Below the pieces are notes generated by a model, which saw nothing but the letters and a program-made list of their open reading frames with translations, had not been told where the DNA came from and searched no databases. A DNA stretch of 63,671 nt, taken from an uncultured Muribaculaceae bacterium (lineage in GTDB: Bacteria; Bacteroidota; Bacteroidia; Bacteroidales; Muribaculaceae). The translations under genes were made by a program, and so were the position numbers. Shown in pieces: positions 45-31,283 of this stretch (within the stretch, counting starts at the first letter, position 1; every line of letters begins with the position of its first letter). Location: positions 1 through 63,671 of the forward strand of contig CAMXAZ010000007.1 in NCBI GenBank assembly GCA_947179295.1, read 5' to 3'.

Positions 45-59
45 AACCTCTTAGAGGTT
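45..59 (-). terminator. Possible terminator hairpin after trpC
   Basis: A short inverted repeat, AACCTC-TTA-GAGGTT, directly abuts the trpC stop codon. On the minus strand it is followed by GTTTAAAAACAA, which is only weakly T-rich. It may end or reduce transcription after trpC. Genes for trpF and trpA are not in this window and may lie further left, so read-through is quite possible. Confidence 0.35.
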
Positions 60-826
60 TAGCTTTTAAGAAACTCGCTCAGGGCTTTTCCGGGGTCGGC
101 GTTGCGCATGAAGGTCTCGCCGATGAGAAAGCCTCGGAATCCGGCTTCGCGCAGCTGCCTGACTTCATTCATGGTGCTCAGTCCGCTTTCAGCCACTTTC
201 ACCACGCCATCAGGCAGTTCGCGGGCCACTGTGGCCGACAGCTGCGGATCGGTGGCGAAGGTTCGCAGGTCGCGGTTGTTGACACCTACCATGTCTACCT
301 CCGGAGTGAATCTGTCAAGCTCGGCGGCGTTGTGGATCTCGAACAGTACTTCCAGTCCGAGCGAATGGGCATAGCCGGTCAGGTCTTCGACCTCAGGGCG
401 AGTGAGCGCGGCGGCTATCAGCAGAATGGCATCCGCGCCGTAGAACCGTGCTTCGGCTATCTGGCGGCGGTCCACTATGAAATCTTTGCGCAGCAGCGGA
501 AGTGAGGCGCGGCAACGGGCCTGCGCGAGGTCGGTGAGCGCTCCGCCGAAATAGACCGTGTCGGTGAGCACCGAGCAGGCCGTGGCCCCGGCCTTTTCAT
601 AGGCCGGGATCACGTCGGAGGGAAGTGCGAGCGGATGGATCTCCCCTTTCGACGGGGAGCGGCGTTTGAATTCGGCTATTATCCCGGTGGGGCTGTCGGT
701 CAGGGCCTGCTTCATGGAGACCGTCGGCCGGGATGAGACCGCCGCCGGTATCTCGCCTCCGAGACGGGCCATCGCCTCCACCTCACGCCGCTTGTTTGCT
801 ATTATACTGTCAAGAATGTTTGCCAT
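59..826 (-). CDS. trpC: Indole-3-glycerol-phosphate synthase
   Basis: Catalyses ring closure of CdRP to indole-3-glycerol phosphate, the fourth step of tryptophan synthesis, in the cytoplasm. The 255-residue product is a single TIM barrel of normal family length. Visible motifs are IIAEFKRRSPSKG at residues 49-61 (catalytic Lys and phosphate region), LLRKDFIVDRRQI, VAESGLS and GFLIGETFMR near the C-terminus (phosphate loop). I chose the ATG at 824-826 (MANILDS), because the longer open frame upstream is out-of-family sequence overlapping the end of trpD. There is no fusion to trpF. It is the last trp gene seen here, 28 bp downstream of trpD in the same direction. Confidence 0.96.
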   Translation of the reverse strand: MANILDSIIANKRREVEAMARLGGEIPAAVSSRPTVSMKQALTDSPTGIIAEFKRRSPSKGEIHPLALPSDVIPAYEKAGATACSVLTDTVYFGGALTDLAQARCRASLPLLRKDFIVDRRQIAEARFYGADAILLIAAALTRPEVEDLTGYAHSLGLEVLFEIHNAAELDRFTPEVDMVGVNNRDLRTFATDPQLSATVARELPDGVVKVAESGLSTMNEVRQLREAGFRGFLIGETFMRNADPGKALSEFLKS

Positions 827-854
827 GTCTGTGTTGTCTGTCTGTTTTCTATTG

Positions 855-1850
855 TCAGCTGTTGATTTCAACGAATTTTCTGAACGTCTCGGCGGCTCTG
901 CCCGAACGGATGCTTTCACGCGCTTCGCCGATGGCTGTCTCCAGTGCCACTTCCGGGTCAAGGGTGCGGATGGCGAATGCAGCATTGGCCACCACGCAGT
1001 TTTCCTGCGCTTCGGTAGCCTTTCCGGCAAGCACGGCATCGAAAATATTCGCGGCATCGCCGATGGTATCTCCTCCCCGGAGATCCTGCTCCGTGGCCTG
1101 CCGGAAGCCTAACGATTCAGGGGTGTAGACTTTCTCTCCCTCGGCTGAGACCGCTTTGAAGGGCGTTGTCAGCGAGATTTCGTCATAGCCGTCAAGCGAG
1201 TGGACTATGGTGCATTTTACCCCTGACTTCTGGGCTATGTAGTTGTAGAGGCGCATGAGTTTCAGATTGTAGACACCGAGCAGCTGATACTCCGGCAGAG
1301 TCGGGTTGACCAGCGGGCCGAGCATGTTGAAGAAATTGCGCACGGCAAGCGCCTTTCTGACCGGGGCCACGCTCTTGAGCGCGGGGCTGAAAAACGGAGC
1401 GTGGAGATAGCTGACGCCACACTCGTCGAGCGAGCGGCGCAGGCGGTCCTGATTGTCAGTGAAGCAGACTCCGTGGTGTTCGAGCACATTACTGGCTCCT
1501 GAAACGGAGCTTGCACCGTAGTTGCCGTGCTTGACCACCTTGCGGCCTGTACCGGCCACCACGAAGCAGGTGGCGGTCGAGATGTTGAAGGTGTTTTTGC
1601 CGTCGCCTCCGGTGCCGACAATGTCGATGGCTTTCACGCCGCCGAGATCAACCGGCCGGCGGCGTTCGAGGAGTGCGTCGCGGAAGCCGCTGAGCTCGTC
1701 GAGGGTTATGCTTCTCATCAGAAAGACGGTCATGAAGGCGGCCAGCTGGGCATCGTTGTAGCGGCCGTCGGCTATGTTGAGCAGCACCTCGCGGGCTTCT
1801 TCGCGGCTGAGGTTCTTGTGCTCGAACATTTTATATAGCAGATTTTTCAT
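855..1850 (-). CDS. trpD: Anthranilate phosphoribosyltransferase
   Basis: Transfers phosphoribose from PRPP to anthranilate, the second step of tryptophan synthesis. The 331-residue protein has the family's helical N-terminal domain. It then carries the PRPP loop GTGGDGKNTFNIST (residues 79-92) and the anthranilate/PRPP segment KHGNYGASSVSGASNVLE from about residue 107. The ATG at 1848-1850 (MKNLLYKMF) matches family length; further in-frame sequence upstream runs into the trpG-trpD spacer and is unlike the family. It is a separate gene and is not fused to trpG as in enterobacteria. It lies 55 bp downstream of trpG in the trp operon. Confidence 0.97.
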   Translation of the reverse strand: MKNLLYKMFEHKNLSREEAREVLLNIADGRYNDAQLAAFMTVFLMRSITLDELSGFRDALLERRRPVDLGGVKAIDIVGTGGDGKNTFNISTATCFVVAGTGRKVVKHGNYGASSVSGASNVLEHHGVCFTDNQDRLRRSLDECGVSYLHAPFFSPALKSVAPVRKALAVRNFFNMLGPLVNPTLPEYQLLGVYNLKLMRLYNYIAQKSGVKCTIVHSLDGYDEISLTTPFKAVSAEGEKVYTPESLGFRQATEQDLRGGDTIGDAANIFDAVLAGKATEAQENCVVANAAFAIRTLDPEVALETAIGEARESIRSGRAAETFRKFVEINS

Positions 1851-1905
1851 TTTCGGTAAACTGTGTGGTGGGTGAGATTGTCTGTGGCGTAGAGAGGGAG
1901 GGCGG

Positions 1906-2469
1906 TCAGTGTCTGAGCCAGTTTTCAAGAATTGTCAGCCCGTAGGGAGTAAGGATTGATTCGGGATGGAACTGCACTCCGCGCACGTCAAGCCGGCGGT
2001 GGCGCATGGCCATGATCTCGCCGTCGGGACTCACGGCTGTGACCTCAAGCTCTTCCGGCAGGCTCTCGCGCTCTACCACCCAGGAGTGGTAGCGCCCCAC
2101 CTCGAAATCGCAGGGCACTCCGGCAAAAAGATAGTCGTCACAGACAAGCCGTGCGGGGGTCTGCACTCCGTGATAGACCTCAGGGAGATTGCGGAGACGT
2201 GCGCCGAAGCGTTCGCCTATGGCCTGATGGCCGAGGCAGACTCCGAGTATCGGCTTTTCGGTGGCGTAGCGCCGGAGCATCTCCTGAAGCAGTCCGGCTT
2301 CGGAGGGAATGCCCGGTCCGGGCGAGATGATGATTCTGTCATAGGCGTCTATCTCGTCGAGGGTGATGCGGTCGTTGCGCCTGACATCAGGATTGACGCC
2401 GAGTTCGCGCATGGCGTGGGCTATGTTGTAGGTGAATGAGTCGTAGTTGTCAAACAGTAGGAGTTTCAT
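1906..2469 (-). CDS. trpG: Anthranilate synthase component II (glutamine amidotransferase)
   Basis: Supplies ammonia from glutamine to TrpE for anthranilate formation. It is a 187-residue class I amidotransferase. The nucleophile lies in GVCLGHQAIGE (Cys78), the oxyanion strand in ISPGPG (about residues 49-53), and the His/Glu pair in VQFHPES near the C-terminus. The chosen ATG (MKLLLFDNYDSFTYN) is the family start. The gene lies 41 bp downstream of trpE, as expected for a two-subunit enzyme. In some bacteria such a subunit also serves folate synthesis (PabA); the trp context favours TrpG. Confidence 0.96.
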   Translation of the reverse strand: MKLLLFDNYDSFTYNIAHAMRELGVNPDVRRNDRITLDEIDAYDRIIISPGPGIPSEAGLLQEMLRRYATEKPILGVCLGHQAIGERFGARLRNLPEVYHGVQTPARLVCDDYLFAGVPCDFEVGRYHSWVVERESLPEELEVTAVSPDGEIMAMRHRRLDVRGVQFHPESILTPYGLTILENWLRH

Positions 2470-2510
2470 GTCAGTGGTGATTGTCCGGGTTGGGGGTAAT
2501 GGAAGTGATG

Positions 2511-3920
2511 TCATTTGCCGAATTCCTCAGCATAGGTGATGGCCTTGCTGAGCGCGCCGAGCTTGTTGCGGGTTTCCTGCAGCTCGCTTTCAGGATTGGA
2601 GCGGGCCACTATGCCGGCCCCGGCCTGAGAGTAGAGGCGGCCGCCGTGGCTGAGGAAGCTGCGGATGGTGATGGCCTGGTTGATGTCGCCGTTGAAGCCG
2701 AGATAGCCTATGCAGCCTCCGTAGAGCAGACGGCTGTGAGGTTCGACCGAGTCGATGATCTGCATGGCTCTGACTTTAGGCGCGCCGCTGAGAGTTCCGG
2801 CAGGGAAGGTGTCGGCAAACAGGCGGTATTGGTTGACCCCTTCGGGCAGTTCGGCCTTGACGCGCGACACCATGTGGATCACATGGGAGTAATATTGTAT
2901 CTGCTTCAGGAAGTCTATCTCGACCTTGCCGCCGCTACGGCTGAGGTCGTTGCGGGCGAGATCAACGAGCATGATGTGTTCGGCGTTCTCTTTTTCATCG
3001 GCTAAAAGCTCGTCGGCCAGGCGGCGGTCACGCTCTTCGTCGCCGGTGCGGCGGAATGTCCCGGCTATAGGGTCGATGTAGGCTGTCCGCCCGCTGATGC
3101 GCAGATGTGTTTCAGGCGAGGAGCCGAACACCTTGAAGTTACCGAAATCGAAATAAAACAGATAGGGCGACGGGTTGATGCAGCGCAGAGCGCGGTAGAC
3201 GTTGAACTCATCGCCGCTGAAACTTCTCGAAAAGCGGCGAGATGGCACGATCTGAAACACATCGCCGCGCAGCGAGTGGCCGACGCACTTTCTGACTGCC
3301 TCTATGAAGTCGGCGTCGCTCATGCTCGATTCCAGATCGTCGGCGGCCTTGAAGGGATATTGCGCCATATTGTTGTTGTGGAGCACCGCTATCAGCTCCT
3401 CAGTGCCTGATGGAGTCCCTTCGGGGCAGTTTTCCACTATAGTCATCTCGTTCTTGTAGTGGTCCACCTGTATCAGGTAGCGATACAGCACATAGTACAT
3501 GTCAGGCACATCGTCGAACCTTTCCTCCCGCCGCTGAATCTCTACATTCTCGAAATATCTCACAGCGTCATAAGCCGTATAGCCTAAGAAGCCGTTGGCC
3601 GTCCTGCCGTCGGCATCTCCGTCGAGGCTATAGCTGCGTATGTAGTCGCGCAGTTCGTCGACCACATCGGTCTTTCCGTCTGAAAGATCTTTCCTGACAA
3701 CCTCTCCGCCGGGATATGAGAGAACAACCTGCTCATTCTCCACTTTGAAACTGCCTATCGGCTCTACCCCGACAAAGGAAACGGCATTCTGCGAGGCATG
3801 ATAGTCGGAACTCTCCAGCAGCGCCGACTGGGGGTAGAGATCGCGCACTTTCAGATAGATCCCCACCGGGGTTTCAAGATCAGCCGGAATGGTGCGCATA
3901 TATTGGGTAAGTCTTTTCAT
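2511..3920 (-). CDS. trpE: Anthranilate synthase component I
   Basis: Converts chorismate and ammonia (from TrpG) to anthranilate, the committed and feedback-controlled step of the pathway. The 469-residue protein has an N-terminal regulatory domain with LLESSD, the LLES element that binds feedback tryptophan in TrpE. Its C-terminal chorismate-binding domain carries IVPSRRF, PIAGTFRRTG, LVDLARNDL, PAGTLSGAPK and GAGIVARSNPE. The feedback motif separates it from PabB. It lies between trpB and trpG and is controlled by the upstream attenuator. Confidence in family and function is high. Confidence 0.97.
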   Translation of the reverse strand: MKRLTQYMRTIPADLETPVGIYLKVRDLYPQSALLESSDYHASQNAVSFVGVEPIGSFKVENEQVVLSYPGGEVVRKDLSDGKTDVVDELRDYIRSYSLDGDADGRTANGFLGYTAYDAVRYFENVEIQRREERFDDVPDMYYVLYRYLIQVDHYKNEMTIVENCPEGTPSGTEELIAVLHNNNMAQYPFKAADDLESSMSDADFIEAVRKCVGHSLRGDVFQIVPSRRFSRSFSGDEFNVYRALRCINPSPYLFYFDFGNFKVFGSSPETHLRISGRTAYIDPIAGTFRRTGDEERDRRLADELLADEKENAEHIMLVDLARNDLSRSGGKVEIDFLKQIQYYSHVIHMVSRVKAELPEGVNQYRLFADTFPAGTLSGAPKVRAMQIIDSVEPHSRLLYGGCIGYLGFNGDINQAITIRSFLSHGGRLYSQAGAGIVARSNPESELQETRNKLGALSKAITYAEEFGK

Positions 3921-3958: not shown

Positions 3959-5158
3959 TCAGCCCTCAATTTTCAGTTCTCTCATATATGTGTTCATGTC
4001 CTTGTCTCCTCGGCCCGACACATTAATCACTACGATTTCATCGCTACCGAACTTCAGGCGGTCGAGCACCGCGAGGGTATGAGCGCTTTCGAGAGCCGGG
4101 ATGATGCCTTCAAGGCGGGTGAGGGTCATGGCCGCATCGAGAGCCTCGCGGTCAGTCACGGCCAGCACATCCGCACGGCCTGACCGGGCAAGGAAGGCAT
4201 GAAGCGGCCCGATGCCGGGATAGTCAAGACCGGCCGAAATGCTGTATGGCTCCTCGATCTGGCCGTCGGGGGTCTGCATCACCAGAGTCCTGGCGCCGTG
4301 GATTATGCCCTCCGAACCTGCCTGGATAGTGGCCGCTGTCTGTCCGCTGTCCACTCCGAGGCCGGCGGCTTCGGCTGCGATGAGTCTCACCGACGGCTCG
4401 TTGATGAAGTGATAGAACGCTCCGGCCGCATTGCTGCCTCCGCCCACACAGGCCACCACATAGTCTGGAGTCTCGCAGCCAGCCTGACTTTTCAGCTGAC
4501 TGCGGATCTCGCTGCTGATGACCGACTGGAAGTGGGCCACCATCTCCGGGTAGGGATGCGGCCCCACGGTGCTGCCTATGATATAGAAGCTGTCGGGGTT
4601 GCAGCACCAGTCGCGGATAGCCTCGTTGGTCGCGTCCTTAAGAGTGCGGTTGCCCGACATCACCGGAACCACCTTGGCGCCGAGCATTTTCATGCGCTCC
4701 ACGTTGGGCTGCTGCCGAGCCACATCAGTCGCACCCATATAGACCACACATTCCAGCCCCATGAGAGCACAGACGGTCGCAGTCGCCACACCGTGCTGTC
4801 CGGCACCCGTTTCGGCTATGATGCGGTGCTTTCCCATCCTCCGGGCCAGCAGAGCCGACCCTATGGCATTGTTGATCTTGTGGGCTCCCGTGTGGTTGAG
4901 ATCCTCGCGTTTGAGATAGATGTTTGTTCCGTAGTGTTCGCTCAGACGGCCGGCGCGGTAGAGGGGCGAGGGGCGCCCTACGTAGTCACGCATCAGCGTG
5001 TCGAATTCCTGTTTGAAATCATCATCGTCAACATAGCGGTAGAAAGCCTTGCGCAGGTTTTCTACATTGCTGTGAAGAATTTCCGGGACGTATGCGCCGC
5101 CGAAACGGCCATAGTAACCTTCCTCGTCAACCGGAAGCAGAGACTTATAGGTGCTCAT
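3959..5158 (-). CDS. trpB: Tryptophan synthase beta chain
   Basis: Condenses indole with serine to form tryptophan, using PLP. The 399-residue protein has the PLP lysine in [12 protein letters not shown] (Lys94), the catalytic Glu in ETGAGQHG and the phosphate cup GGGSNAAG. This is the TrpB1 type that normally partners TrpA. The ATG at 5156-5158 (MSTYKSLLP) was preferred to an upstream in-frame Met, because the extra 23 residues are leader sequence between the attenuator and the gene. trpB is the first structural gene of this operon, and the order B-E-G-D-C suggests trpF and trpA lie beyond the left edge. Confidence 0.97.
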
Positions 5159-5232: not shown

Positions 5233-5270
5233 AAAAAAGAAGCGGCCGCCGATTGATTATCGACAGCCGC
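5233..5270 (-). terminator. trp operon attenuator terminator
   Basis: Read on the minus strand, a 12-bp GC-rich stem (GCGGCTGTCGAT at 5270-5259 with ATCGGCGGCCGC at 5253-5242, five-base loop, two G-U pairs) is followed by TTCTTTTTT. It stands between the Trp-rich leader peptide and trpB, about 75 nt before the trpB ATG. Its 5' arm overlaps GCTGTCGATAAT (5267-5256), which can pair over 12 positions, two of them G-U, with ATTATCGATGGC (5333-5322) inside the leader reading frame. These are mutually exclusive structures, as in classical amino-acid attenuators. Confidence 0.88.
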
Positions 5271-5316
5271 CTGTAAAATCCTTAAAATCTACATTCTCTT
5301 GATCTGTGGACGCAGA

Positions 5317-5391
5317 TCATCGCCATCGATAATTGTTACCGATGCGCCACCAATAAAACTTGCTGTTGAATAAACTGATCATAGTCTTCAT
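5317..5391 (-). CDS. trpL: trp operon leader peptide
   Basis: A 24-codon reading frame encoding MKTMISLFNSKFYWWRIG and ending NNYRWR, with tandem Trp codons (5352-5347) and a third Trp codon (5325-5323). Trp is the rarest amino acid, and three in 24 codons just upstream of a terminator and the trp genes marks an attenuation leader peptide. A consensus promoter lies about 40 bp upstream. A ribosome stalled at the tandem Trp codons would leave region 5333-5322, which starts 13 nt further on, free to pair with the terminator arm and so allow transcription of trpB-C. A ribosome reaching the stop codon would cover it and let the terminator form. Confidence 0.88.
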   Translation of the reverse strand: MKTMISLFNSKFYWWRIGNNYRWR

Positions 5392-5431
5392 TGATTTGTG
5401 GCTTTGGTGATGCTTCATTGCGTCAACGCGA

Positions 5432-5463
5432 CAAAATTACGGATACTGATTGAAAACACCAAA
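5432..5463 (-). promoter_or_regulatory. trp operon promoter
   Basis: On the minus strand, a perfect Bacteroidetes -33 box TTTG (5463-5460) and a perfect -7 box TAATTTTG (TAnnTTTG, 5439-5432) are separated by 20 nt. Transcription would start near 5425, about 34 nt before the leader-peptide ATG. Confidence 0.85.
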
Positions 5464-5626
5464 TAAATTCGCAGAAAATTTACATAAAATCCGACAAAAT
5501 ATCACAAATCGCCAATACCTGCCTACTGATTGACGCAATTATCCGTCTATTTCAAATAAAATATCACAAACCACCTTAGTATATTATACCGGATCCACAG
5601 ACAGTGACGAATCCGCCAATGCAGAC

Positions 5627-5768
5627 TCCGGACAGCCTGTGGTCAGCGGGTTCCGGCCGCCATGTGGCCAGCAGGCTCCGGACGGCTTGTGGTCAGCGGG
5701 CTCCGGCCGGTCTGTGGTCAGCAGGTGTCCGACAAGGCATGATTCGGACAACCTATAGTCAGCGGGTG
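5627..5768. repeat. 25-bp GC-rich minisatellite
   Basis: Four consecutive 25-26 bp units begin at 5627, 5652, 5677 and 5702. All share TCCGG(A/C)C, a TGTGG(T/C)CAGC core and an ending AGG or GGG. A fifth, longer and more diverged unit runs from 5728 to 5768. The units are directly joined without spacers, so this is a tandem repeat and not a CRISPR. Alternate units (1 and 3, 2 and 4) resemble each other most, which suggests a 50-bp higher-order duplication. No function is apparent. Confidence 0.8.
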
Positions 5769-6588: not shown

Positions 6589-9500
6589 ATGAAAAAGCTG
6601 TTTCTACTACTGACGGCCCTCGTTGTGGCAGTCGGGACGCTTGCGGCTCAGAACCGCACAGTTTCCGGCACCGTGATCAGTGCCGCTGACGGTGATCCGC
6701 TGATCGGAGCCACTGTCATGGGTGTGGGTACCAAGATCGGTACCGCTACTGACATCGATGGAAAGTTCACTCTGAGCCTTCCCGAATCAGTGACCAAAAT
6801 TCAGGTTTCTTACATCAGCATGAAGACTGTCGAGGTGGCTATCACTCCCGGTCAGATGATGATCTCGATGGAGAATGCCAACACTCTTGACGAAGTGGTC
6901 GTTACCGGTTACGGTGTTCAGCGCAAGGCTGCCTTTACAGGTGCTGCCTCTGTGCTCGACGGTGAGGTCATCGACAAGAAGTCTGATGTGAACTTCGTGA
7001 AGTCTCTCGAAGGTTCGGTCACCGGTTTCCAGTACAACAACTCCACTTCTTCGCCCGGTACATTCGGTTCGGTCTATATCCGTGGCCGCGGTTCGCTTTC
7101 TTCAAGCTCGCAGCCTCTGTATGTGATCGACGGTGTGCCTGTCAATTCTGATGCCGACGGTATCAGCAGCTCGTCCAACAACTTCTTTGATCCGATGGCT
7201 GCCTACAATCCCAGCGATATCGAGAACGTGACTGTGCTCAAGGACGCTGCCGCAACCGCGATCTACGGTTCACGCGCTGCCAACGGTGTGATCGTTATCA
7301 CCACAAAGAAGGGTGGCGAGGGCAAGTTCAACCTCAATGTCGACATCAAGCAGGGTCTGACCAAGATGGCTAACCACAACATGAATTATGCCAATGCCGC
7401 AGAAACTATGGACTGGTTCACCAAGGGCTACGTGGCTTTGAGAGGCGGTACGTATGACGAGTGGTATGACAAACTTGTCGGCGCTCTCGGCTGGGACGGC
7501 AAGACCGACACCGACTGGATCGACGCTGTCACCCGCACCGGTTATTTCCAGGAATACAACATCAGCTTCAACGGCACAAGCGGCAATACAAACTACTATG
7601 CCTCTATCGGCTATGTAGATTCAGAAGGTATTGTGATCAACTCAGGCAACACCCGCTATTCAGGCCGTGTGAACCTCGACACCAAGTATAAATATTTCTC
7701 TGCCGGTGTCAACGCTTCTCTTTCATGGAGCAAAAACAACAACTTCAGCCAGTCGACAACTGGCGCAATGTCGAACCCTCTGACCGGAGCGGTCTCTTCA
7801 TGGCTCCCGATCGACCCCATCTACAATGAAGACGGTTCATATTACGGTGTTTCAGGCTACAACCCTGTGGCTGTCAATGACGAAAAACTCGGTAACCTCT
7901 ATGAGGTGACAAACCAGACCATCAATGCCAATCCCTGGCTTCGCATCGACCTGCCATTCGGCATCTGGGCCAAGACAAATCTCGGTGTCAACCTCGTTGA
8001 CCAGACCGACTATGACTACTGGAGTGCCGTCTACAACCCGCAGGGTATGAATTATAACGGTCTCGGCCGACAATATAAGCAGCGTATCAGTACTATTACC
8101 TGGACCAACACTTTCGGCTGGACCAAGACTTTCGACAAGCATGACATCAACCTCCTTCTCGGTCAGGAATGCCAGCGCTACGACTACCACGAAGATTTCT
8201 ATTCACGCACTGACTTCCCATTCGCTGACTCAGGTATGCGCGATCTGACAACCGCAGCAACAGACAACGGCAGCTCATATTACCGCAGCGAATCGCGTCT
8301 TGCATCATACTTCATGGATGCCCACTATTCATATGACGACCGTTACTACCTGTCGGCTTCTTTCCGCCGCGACGGTTCATCGGTGTTCGGCGCTGACAAC
8401 CGCTGGGGTAACTTCTGGTCAGTCGGCGGCAAGTGGCGTCTGTCACAGGAATCATTCGCAAAAGATCTCACCTGGCTCAGCAATGCCGCACTCCGCATCT
8501 CTTACGGTACTGTCGGCAACCAGTCTCTGCCTAACCTCTATGCAGCCCGCGGATACTATTCAGCCGGATATAACTACAATCAGATTCCCGGTATGATTCC
8601 CGCTCAGATCTCAAATCCGGATCTCACATGGGAAACTTCCCGCAAGTTTGACGTAGGTTTTGACCTCTCGCTCTTCAATCGAGTGAACTTCACTTTTGAC
8701 TACTACAACGATGATACTTCCGATGCTCTCTACAAGGTGCCTCTGTCAATGACCACCGGTATGAATTCATACTATAAGAACATCGGCAAGATGCGCAACC
8801 GCGGTATTGAATTCGGTGTCAACGGTGTGGCCTACACAAGCCGTGATCTCACTGTCAGCCTCTTCGCCAACCTCACATGGAATGACAACAAGATCCTCAA
8901 GCTTGCCGACGGATCTGTAGAATACACCTTTCAGCTTCTTGAAGAAGGCCGTCCCTTCACTCAGTTCTACACTCAGGAGTATGCAGGTGTAGACCGCGAA
9001 ACCGGTAAGGCTCTTTATTACCGTTATGCCAAAGGAACAAAAGACGAGAACGGTAACGACCTCAGCAATGTGCTTACCGATGACTACAATGCAGCTGAAA
9101 AGCGCTATGTAGGTTCGGCAGCTCCCAAGGTGTTCGGTGCGTTCGGCCTCAATGCCCGCGGTTACGGGTTTGACCTCTCCATGCAGTTCAACTATCGCCT
9201 CGGCAGCAAGGTGATCGACACCGGCCACGACTTCACCGGCTGGAACATGAGCACCTACCGTACACCGCTGAAGGAAATGATTAAAAATTCATGGACTCCT
9301 GAGAATCCTGATGCCAAGTATCCGCAGTACATCATCAGCGACCCCAACCAAATTTCTTCCGACAACTATTCGTCACGCTGGATCATGAGCGGAAACTATC
9401 TCCGTCTGAGCAACATCACATTCGGCTACACTATCCCTGCCTCGATCACCCGCAAGGCTCTTATCTCTAAGTGCCGCATCTACACCAGCTTCGACAATGT

Positions 9501-31077: not shown

Positions 31078-31159
31078 GCCCGGATGGCGGAATCGGTAGA
31101 CGCGCCGGTCTCAAACACCGGTGGAGCAATCCATCCCGGTTCGATCCCGGGTCCGGGTA
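31078..31159 (+). tRNA. tRNA-Leu (anticodon CAA)
   Basis: An 82-nt class II tRNA. The acceptor stem GCCCGGA/TCCGGGT has one G-U. The D arm contains GGCGGAATCGGTAGACGC, and the anticodon loop CTCAAAC sits between CCGGT and ACCGG. A short variable arm is TGGAGCAATCCA, and the T arm carries GGTTCGATCCC. The 3' CCA is not encoded. It is followed 23 bp later by tRNA-Ser. Confidence 0.95.
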
Positions 31160-31182
31160 CAAAGAATAAACCAACGATCACA

Positions 31183-31269
31183 GGAAGGATGCCGGAGTGG
31201 TCGATCGGGGCGGTCTCGAAAACCGTTGTTCCCTTACGGGAACCCAGGGTTCGAATCCCTGTCCTTCCG
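31183..31269 (+). tRNA. tRNA-Ser (anticodon CGA)
   Basis: An 87-nt class II tRNA with acceptor stem GGAAGGA/TCCTTCC, anticodon loop CTCGAAA and a long variable arm, GTTCCCTTACGGGAAC. The T arm carries GGGTTCGAATCCC, and the discriminator base is G. CCA is not encoded (the next bases are CA). It shares a promoter with the preceding tRNA-Leu. Confidence 0.95.
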
Positions 31270-31283
31270 CAGAAAACTCGAAT

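Follow-up and report, generated by a model that had tools for sequence, protein, structure and literature searches.

The window analysed here, a 63,671-nt stretch of DNA from an uncultured Muribaculaceae bacterium (GenBank assembly GCA_947179295.1, contig CAMXAZ010000007.1), carries a probable trp attenuator on its minus strand (5463-5233). A promoter of the Bacteroidota type can be read there directly, as can a leader ORF containing two adjacent Trp codons, a strong terminator and an alternative pairing of 12 pairs. With a probability of about 0.9, this element would control the trp operon through ribosome-mediated attenuation of transcription, with charged tRNA-Trp as the signal sensed. At the level of sequence, a promoter, a coding leader in which two Trp codons stand in tandem, and a set of three covarying helices that exclude one another are established; the attenuator is real, conserved and working-looking, and its mechanism is a known one. 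In Muribaculaceae it takes the form of a distinct variant, which Rfam did not detect in the scanned loci and in which the antiterminator appears to be arranged in the opposite way to that of most of the order.

Muribaculaceae are a major family of the gut microbiota, and they gain here a predicted and testable tryptophan switch that was missed by Rfam in the loci scanned. Shine-Dalgarno sequences are little used in the phylum Bacteroidota, and a well-supported trp attenuator with four segments makes the coupling of ribosome and RNA polymerase directly testable there.

The trp leader in the window

The operon in the window has the gene order trpB, trpE, trpG, trpD, trpC, and four of the five genes pass the NCBIfam cut-off for a trp family, the exception being trpE (Table 1). 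The promoter was classed as Bacteroidota type by a consensus which we take to be that of the phylum. When the whole window was scanned for TAnnTTTG followed by a short ATG ORF and a strong terminator, the trp leader was the sole element returned; it appeared three times, starting from the in-frame ATGs at 5418, 5391 and 5382, which share the stop codon TGA at 5319-5317. Since an ATG lies exactly 10 codons before Trp-Trp in 37 of 62 Muribaculaceae leaders, that of the window included, a start at 5382 (21 codons) is likelier than one at 5391 (24 codons). The trp promoter is separated from a divergent ORF of 1010 codons at 6589, which by eye resembles a SusC/TonB-type receptor, by a region that contains a GC-rich tandem repeat just upstream of the promoter (5621-5725, period 25 or 50, about four or two copies). 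Elsewhere in the window, genes for tRNA-Leu (CAA) and tRNA-Ser (CGA) are adjacent to each other (31078-31270).

Table 1 Features of the trp locus in the window
Feature	Position	Strand	Basis or remark
Promoter: TTTG 5463-5460, N20, TAATTTTG 5439-5432	5432..5463	-	Direct reading
Leader ORF MISLFNSKFYWWRIGNNYRWR and stop, 21 codons	5317..5382	-	Alternative in-frame starts at 5391 and 5418
Tandem Trp codons (putative regulatory codons)	5347..5352	-	Direct reading; Trp-Trp in 62/68 Muribaculaceae trpB upstream regions
Segment 1, partner of segment 2 (1:2 hairpin); its first position is also the final base of Trp codon 2	5336..5347	-	Folding; covariation
Segment 2, partner of segment 1 or segment 3	5322..5333	-	Folding; duplex fit; covariation
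Third Trp codon, within segment 2; codon not conserved	5323..5325	-	28/62 loci by pattern
Segment 3, putative antiterminator partner of segment 2	5256..5267	-	2:3 covariation (helix excluded from the model)
Intrinsic terminator hairpin (segments 3 and 4), loop 5258-5254	5240..5272	-	14 pairs, 8 of them G-C; -23.0 kcal/mol
Terminator U-run	5233..5238	-	Direct reading
trpB, first gene of the putatively controlled operon, start ATG 5158	3959..5158	-	TIGR00263, 586.5 bits (cut-off 392.45)
trpE, anthranilate synthase component I	2511..3920	-	Best family TIGR00564, 423 bits, under its cut-off of 517.7
trpG, glutamine amidotransferase subunit	1906..2514	-	TIGR00566, above cut-off
trpD	855..1928	-	TIGR01245, above cut-off
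trpC; the window ends 58 bases further on	59..880	-	NF001377, above cut-off

The first-pass annotation of this DNA had described four parts on the minus strand, namely promoter, leader peptide, GC-rich stem with U-run and alternative pairing, and all of them are present in the sequence where it had placed them. It was right about the leader ORF but probably not about a length of 24 codons. The 13-nt gap that it gave between the tandem Trp codons and the pairing segment was correct (5346-5334), as was its 12-position pairing of 5333-5322 with 5267-5256, which consists of ten Watson-Crick and two G-U pairs. Its terminator and its 2:3 pairing thus stood, while the structure as a whole was incomplete since the 1:2 hairpin had been overlooked. 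This hairpin (5347-5336 with 5332-5322) completes the classical set of 1:2, 2:3 and 3:4 helices.

The 201-nt leader folded with -65.5 kcal/mol (z -4.5 against its own dinucleotide shuffles) into a best structure that combines the terminator with the 1:2 hairpin. Energies of -10.1, -13.6 and -23.0 kcal/mol were calculated for the 1:2 helix, the 2:3 duplex and the 3:4 helix, respectively. When segment 4 was removed, the RNA refolded into the 12-pair 2:3 helix, 1.8 sd below shuffled sequences, of which 9/200 were as good. Segment 2 fitted the 5' arm of the terminator with p = 0.035 and the 3' arm with p = 0.955. This support from a single sequence (z -1.8, p = 0.035) is not beyond doubt; the antiterminator is carried by the comparative data described below.

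The effect of ribosome position was modelled by imposing an assumed footprint of 18 nt on the 5' side and 12 nt on the 3' side of the start of the A-site codon. With the ribosome stalled at the first or second Trp codon and segment 4 not yet made, the probability of the 2:3 helix was 0.977; it was 0 when the ribosome had moved on to the third Trp codon or further to the stop codon. Under the assumed footprint, a ribosome stalled at the tandem codons would shield segment 1, and the spacing would keep segment 2 accessible, as had been claimed earlier for the pairing segment. It had also been proposed that stalling at the third Trp codon should have the opposite effect, which holds in the folding, where a ribosome at 5325 abolishes 2:3; a starved ribosome, however, would meet the tandem codons first, and the third codon is present in only 28/62 loci. 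In ribosome-free RNA before synthesis of segment 4, the equilibrium model preferred 2:3 (0.81) to 1:2 (0.15), so that termination by default in the absence of translation is not predicted at equilibrium. In the full-length RNA of the window, the 3:4 helix formed at equilibrium in every ribosome state tried (P 0.95-0.99), and the choice would therefore have to be kinetic and fall before segment 4 is made.

The element would thus operate as follows. When charged tRNA-Trp is scarce, the ribosome would stall at 5352 or 5349 and cover segment 1, and the freed segment 2 would pair with segment 3 once the latter is transcribed. Segment 4 would be left unpaired, and RNA polymerase would read into trpB. 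When tryptophan is plentiful, the ribosome would reach the stop codon at 5319 and cover segment 2, segments 3 and 4 would form the terminator, and transcription would end near 5233. The decision is predicted to be taken during transcription, as 2:3 must form before segment 4 is made. In the trp leader of Escherichia coli, the decision is likewise held to occur during transcription.

Conservation and covariation in Muribaculaceae

Among the 27 genomes of the genus, 14 contained TrpB proper, matched along most of the protein; together with a draw of 198 genomes of the family, 69 loci were obtained. Many of the remaining family genomes contained a distant TrpB-like match only, or none, and TrpB fragments in two genomes (G019 and G107) were not used. 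One locus with only 69 nt of upstream sequence was left out (L144), so that 68 were counted. An ATG ORF with adjacent Trp codons preceded trpB in 62/68 of these upstream regions, compared to 20/3,400 dinucleotide-shuffled ones, and the conservation of the Trp codons in relatives, proposed as a check in the first-pass annotation, was thereby confirmed. The Trp-Trp leader was not found at the other six loci (L013, L114, L117, L149, L151 and L152); one of them, L013, retains a single Trp codon in a degenerate-looking leader. A promoter pattern, TT[TG]G-N17-23-TAnnTTTG, was present upstream of the leader in 45/61 loci and in 1.4% of shuffles. A Trp codon near the position of the third one occurred by pattern in 28/62 leaders; the bases of this codon would be kept for pairing, and their reading as Trp would depend on the length of the preceding loop. 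In two family genomes (L197 and L202), the leader lies at the edge of its contig, and trpB is either absent or located on a different contig; assembly breaks therefore hide some operons.

A plain MAFFT alignment of 29 leaders left some divergent loci out of register by eye and was replaced by an alignment rebuilt on 23 leaders, followed by realignment with a covariance model. The 23 leaders served as seed of this model, R1, which included the helices 1:2 and 3:4 only, with 2:3 held out. Within the family, R1 yielded 80-111 bits in the 28 best loci and 46 places at E <= 0.01, which were sorted by hand into 39 places before trpB or at a contig end, distributed over 39 of the 198 family genomes, and seven others. 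Of the latter, one was antisense to a true leader, two were second places in their genomes (G186 and G099), and four (L198-L201) reached up to 42 bits but had no trp gene in the fetched stretch and the look of ordinary terminators; they were rejected as trp leaders. Outside the family, R1 found 12 weak places (30-38 bits, L184-L195), only one of which, L187, has a trp gene (trpE) nearby; the pairing in L187 was not significant. Given these low-scoring places without a trp gene, a score above about 44 bits can be regarded as safe, and a lower one needs a trpB neighbour.

Covariation was assessed on 45 realigned sequences (alignment A4) that were chosen by score from 82 sources, which biases the set to the conserved type; it comprises 39 records from the family set and six from genome contigs (L034, L035, L046, L053, L057 and L064). 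For 1:2, 93.5% of cells were paired, with 16 double-change cells against a shuffled mean of 3.3, and for 3:4, 93.6% were paired, with 85 double-change cells against 23.4 in shuffles. The held-out 2:3 helix was paired in 88.0% of cells and had 19 double-change cells against 7.3 in shuffles, 0/500 of which were as high. The shuffles used for the helices ignore the kinship among the sequences. Sliding the partner by 1-3 columns strongly lowered each helix, with 2:3 dropping to 9-58% paired. On the same alignment, 2:3 did not exceed the shuffles in pairs changed on both sides (40/500 as high) or in further pair types (81/500), nor did 1:2 in pairs changed on both sides (160/500). Covariation in both competing stems, a further check proposed earlier, was thus found for 2:3 and 3:4 in the 45 sequences.

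The 2:3 pairing was also assessed in single leaders, in which it was located by Trp-Trp and the terminator alone. Of the 62 leaders, 58 could be used, after exclusion of three with N letters (L129, L140 and L156) and one without a called terminator (L130). Segment 2 fitted the 5' arm of its own terminator at p < 0.05 in 47/58 leaders and the 3' arm in 5/58, while the 2:3 fit missed this level in 11/58. When partners were swapped between loci, the energy rose from -16.9 kcal/mol with the 5' side of the own locus to -13.1 kcal/mol with that of other loci (z -10.3), and a worse fit was likewise seen when the test was confined to the 35 non-seed loci (z -9.3). In several leaders, among them L125, L131, L158 and L121, the letters are very different and the plan is unchanged.

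Alternative explanations

The element exhibits the features of a classical trpL-like attenuator, i.e. a leader ORF with adjacent Trp codons, a terminator before the first gene, mutually exclusive 2:3 and 1:2 helices and the corresponding spacing. The ribosome-mediated trp attenuation proposed in the first-pass annotation is the best-supported explanation, given that the Trp codons are conserved and both competing stems covary. We consider it highly unlikely that the leader ORF is not sensed at all, with the hairpin acting as a simple terminator, or as a partial attenuator that works constitutively, and the Trp codons being by-products of pairing. Such an origin would fit the overlap of TGGTGG with the base of the 1:2 hairpin and the recurrence of GGUGGC-like letters in segments 2 and 4, and GGUGGC can, by eye, pair with GCCAUC of segment 3. 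The reading frame argues otherwise: an ATG in the 33 nt before Trp-Trp is in frame with it in 61/62 loci, against three and six loci for the other two frames, and stop codons in the 62 leaders are concentrated in those other frames (52 and 29, compared to four in the Trp-Trp frame). TGGTGG furthermore persists in L125, L131, L158 and L121, although their segments 2-4 are greatly changed.

Systems of the TRAP or T-box type control trp operons in Firmicutes without translation of a leader, and a tryptophan- or tRNA-binding element, be it TRAP, a T-box or a Trp aptamer, could in principle act here in the same way. We regard this as the least probable of the explanations considered, since the genome of the bacterium (95% complete) gave no match at E <= 1 to TRAP/TrpBP (PF02081), to the T-box covariance model (RF00230) or to the Trp repressor TrpR (PF01371), and no Rfam family exceeded its cut-off at the locus. 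A scan of the locus with relaxed thresholds returned four chance-level matches only, to a lncRNA, a microRNA and two snoRNA families. Attenuation as proposed might also be supplemented by a translated leader that acts via Rho or by a leader peptide that acts in trans. For the trp leader peptide of Sinorhizobium, action in trans is described in one report (PMC7298713); the leader in the window, however, ends in a strong hairpin followed by a U-run, and the N-terminus of the peptide is by eye poorly conserved among the leaders, so that we consider such an additional role highly unlikely.

Comparison with known trp leaders and two putative designs in Bacteroidales

Rfam contains a family named Bacteroid-trp (RF01692), for which it gives the description 'Bacteroidete tryptophan peptide leader RNA'. 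Weinberg et al. (2010; PMC2864571) assign it to Bacteroidetes in their Table 1, with 'y' for RNA and for cis-regulatory and 'n' for switch. In a draw of 295 genomes from the order, 42 matched RF01692 at E <= 0.01 and 15 exceeded the cut-off. Twelve loci were fetched; the match was located before trpB, within about 150 nt, in 11 of them and at a contig end in the twelfth. A Trp-Trp leader ORF followed by a terminator was present in 10/12, while one (L171) had no ORF under the limits of the script and another (L177) was cut off. As RF01692 already precedes trpB in other families, trp peptide leaders are already known in Bacteroidales, and the earlier idea that a clear case was still lacking in this order has to be given up. 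The work of Lopatovskaya and colleagues from 2010 may cover Bacteroidetes as well. Among the matches listed in the open-licence full-text literature, no title or abstract described a trp attenuator of Muribaculaceae or two designs.

RF01692 (cut-off 49 bits) had no match in the window, nor in the genome of the bacterium at E <= 10. At cut-off it matched 0/40 Muribaculaceae trpB loci, 37 of which have a Trp-Trp leader, and in the same kind of scan it matched 10/19 loci of other Bacteroidales. The highest score in a Muribaculaceae genome was 40.0 bits (L148), and no Rfam family at all exceeded its cut-off at the locus in the window. The Muribaculaceae element resembles Bacteroid-trp in its position before trpB and its Trp-rich leader. 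It differs in that its segment 2 fits the 5' arm of the terminator, whereas the leaders of other families mostly fit the loop and the 3' arm, a feature that was derived here and is not part of the Rfam description.

With the trp leader of E. coli (RF00513), the Muribaculaceae element shares a tandem Trp followed by Arg, a distance of about 20 nt from the first Trp codon to segment 2, and the pairing of segment 2 with the 5' arm of the terminator. The same script gave -10.9 kcal/mol and p = 0.080 for the 5' arm of the E. coli leader and p = 1.0 for its 3' arm. The two differ in phylum and in promoter type, and no match to TrpR was found in the genome studied here. RF00513 (cut-off 41 bits) had no match in the window or in the 40 Muribaculaceae loci, compared to 93.1 bits for the E. 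coli control. The stretch TGGTGGCGCA that is common to the leaders of Muribaculaceae and E. coli is probably convergent.

Outside Muribaculaceae, 87 trpB upstream regions were compiled from the best-scoring TrpB places, a subset in which one region (L220) has only 14 nt of upstream sequence. A Trp-Trp ORF was present in 42/87; three (L244, L257 and L289) were dropped by eye as non-leaders, leaving 39. Their segment 2 is often GUCGURAG-like and equals a copy of the 5' arm of the terminator. Unbroken helices of at least 8 were formed with the loop and 3' arm in 19/39 of these leaders (2.9% of shuffles) and with the 5' side in 1/39 (4.9%). In Muribaculaceae, the corresponding values were 9/58 for the loop and 3' side (9.7%) and 44/58 for the 5' side (7.7%). 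At a threshold of 7, 45 Muribaculaceae leaders were labelled five-prime, two three-prime and 11 unclear, compared to three five-prime, 28 three-prime and eight unclear among the others; both labels and thresholds were picked after the data had been seen.

The results point, with a slight balance in favour, to two mirror-image attenuators of the same operon within one order. The TrpB lineage of Muribaculaceae would have undergone a switch of geometry in which neither the Trp codons nor the location ahead of trpB was lost. In most Bacteroidales, segment 2 would be a copy of the 5' arm that invades the loop and the 3' arm; in Muribaculaceae, it would be a copy of the 3' arm that captures the 5' arm, a contrast towards which we lean without great confidence. 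In the other families, p < 0.05 against shuffles was reached by the 3' side in 15/42 leaders and by the 5' side in 7/42. The swap test, however, did not single out the 3' side in these leaders (z -2.6 for the 5' side, z -1.7 for the loop and 3' side), and this half of the argument therefore rests on helix length and the shared motif.

In a TrpB tree of 51 leaders with full TrpB and two outgroup rows, the arm labels required two changes, one of which concerns the weakly labelled L228, and the Muribaculaceae branch had an SH-aLRT support of 99; this tree contains only one of the five label exceptions and lacks L150, L165, L263 and L271. In a tree of 97 leaders, 46 rows of which cover about 100 residues, the arm labels required six changes and the family labels four, with 47/96 forks weak. 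Counted with three labels, the larger tree needed 20 changes against a mean of 41, a clustering stronger than in all 200 shuffles. Contrary or weak results, the 97-leader tree among them, slightly lowered our confidence in two mirror-image designs. If confirmed, two opposed designs within one order would constitute a natural experiment on a regulatory RNA that changes its pairing partner. They would also offer a natural series for how attenuators alter their design without loss of control.

Three loci from Muribaculaceae genomes (L148, L155 and L165) have leaders that by eye resemble RF01692, and the N-termini of their TrpB are nearest to those of other Bacteroidales families; the leader design therefore seems to follow the trpB lineage. 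A transfer of the trp operon together with its leader would explain these cases, as would misbinned contigs. In two genomes of family f78 (L204 and L205), segment 2 upstream of trpB keeps GUCGUGAG while the terminator arms are changed, so that mainly the loop is still complementary; these leaders may represent either antitermination through the loop only or decay.
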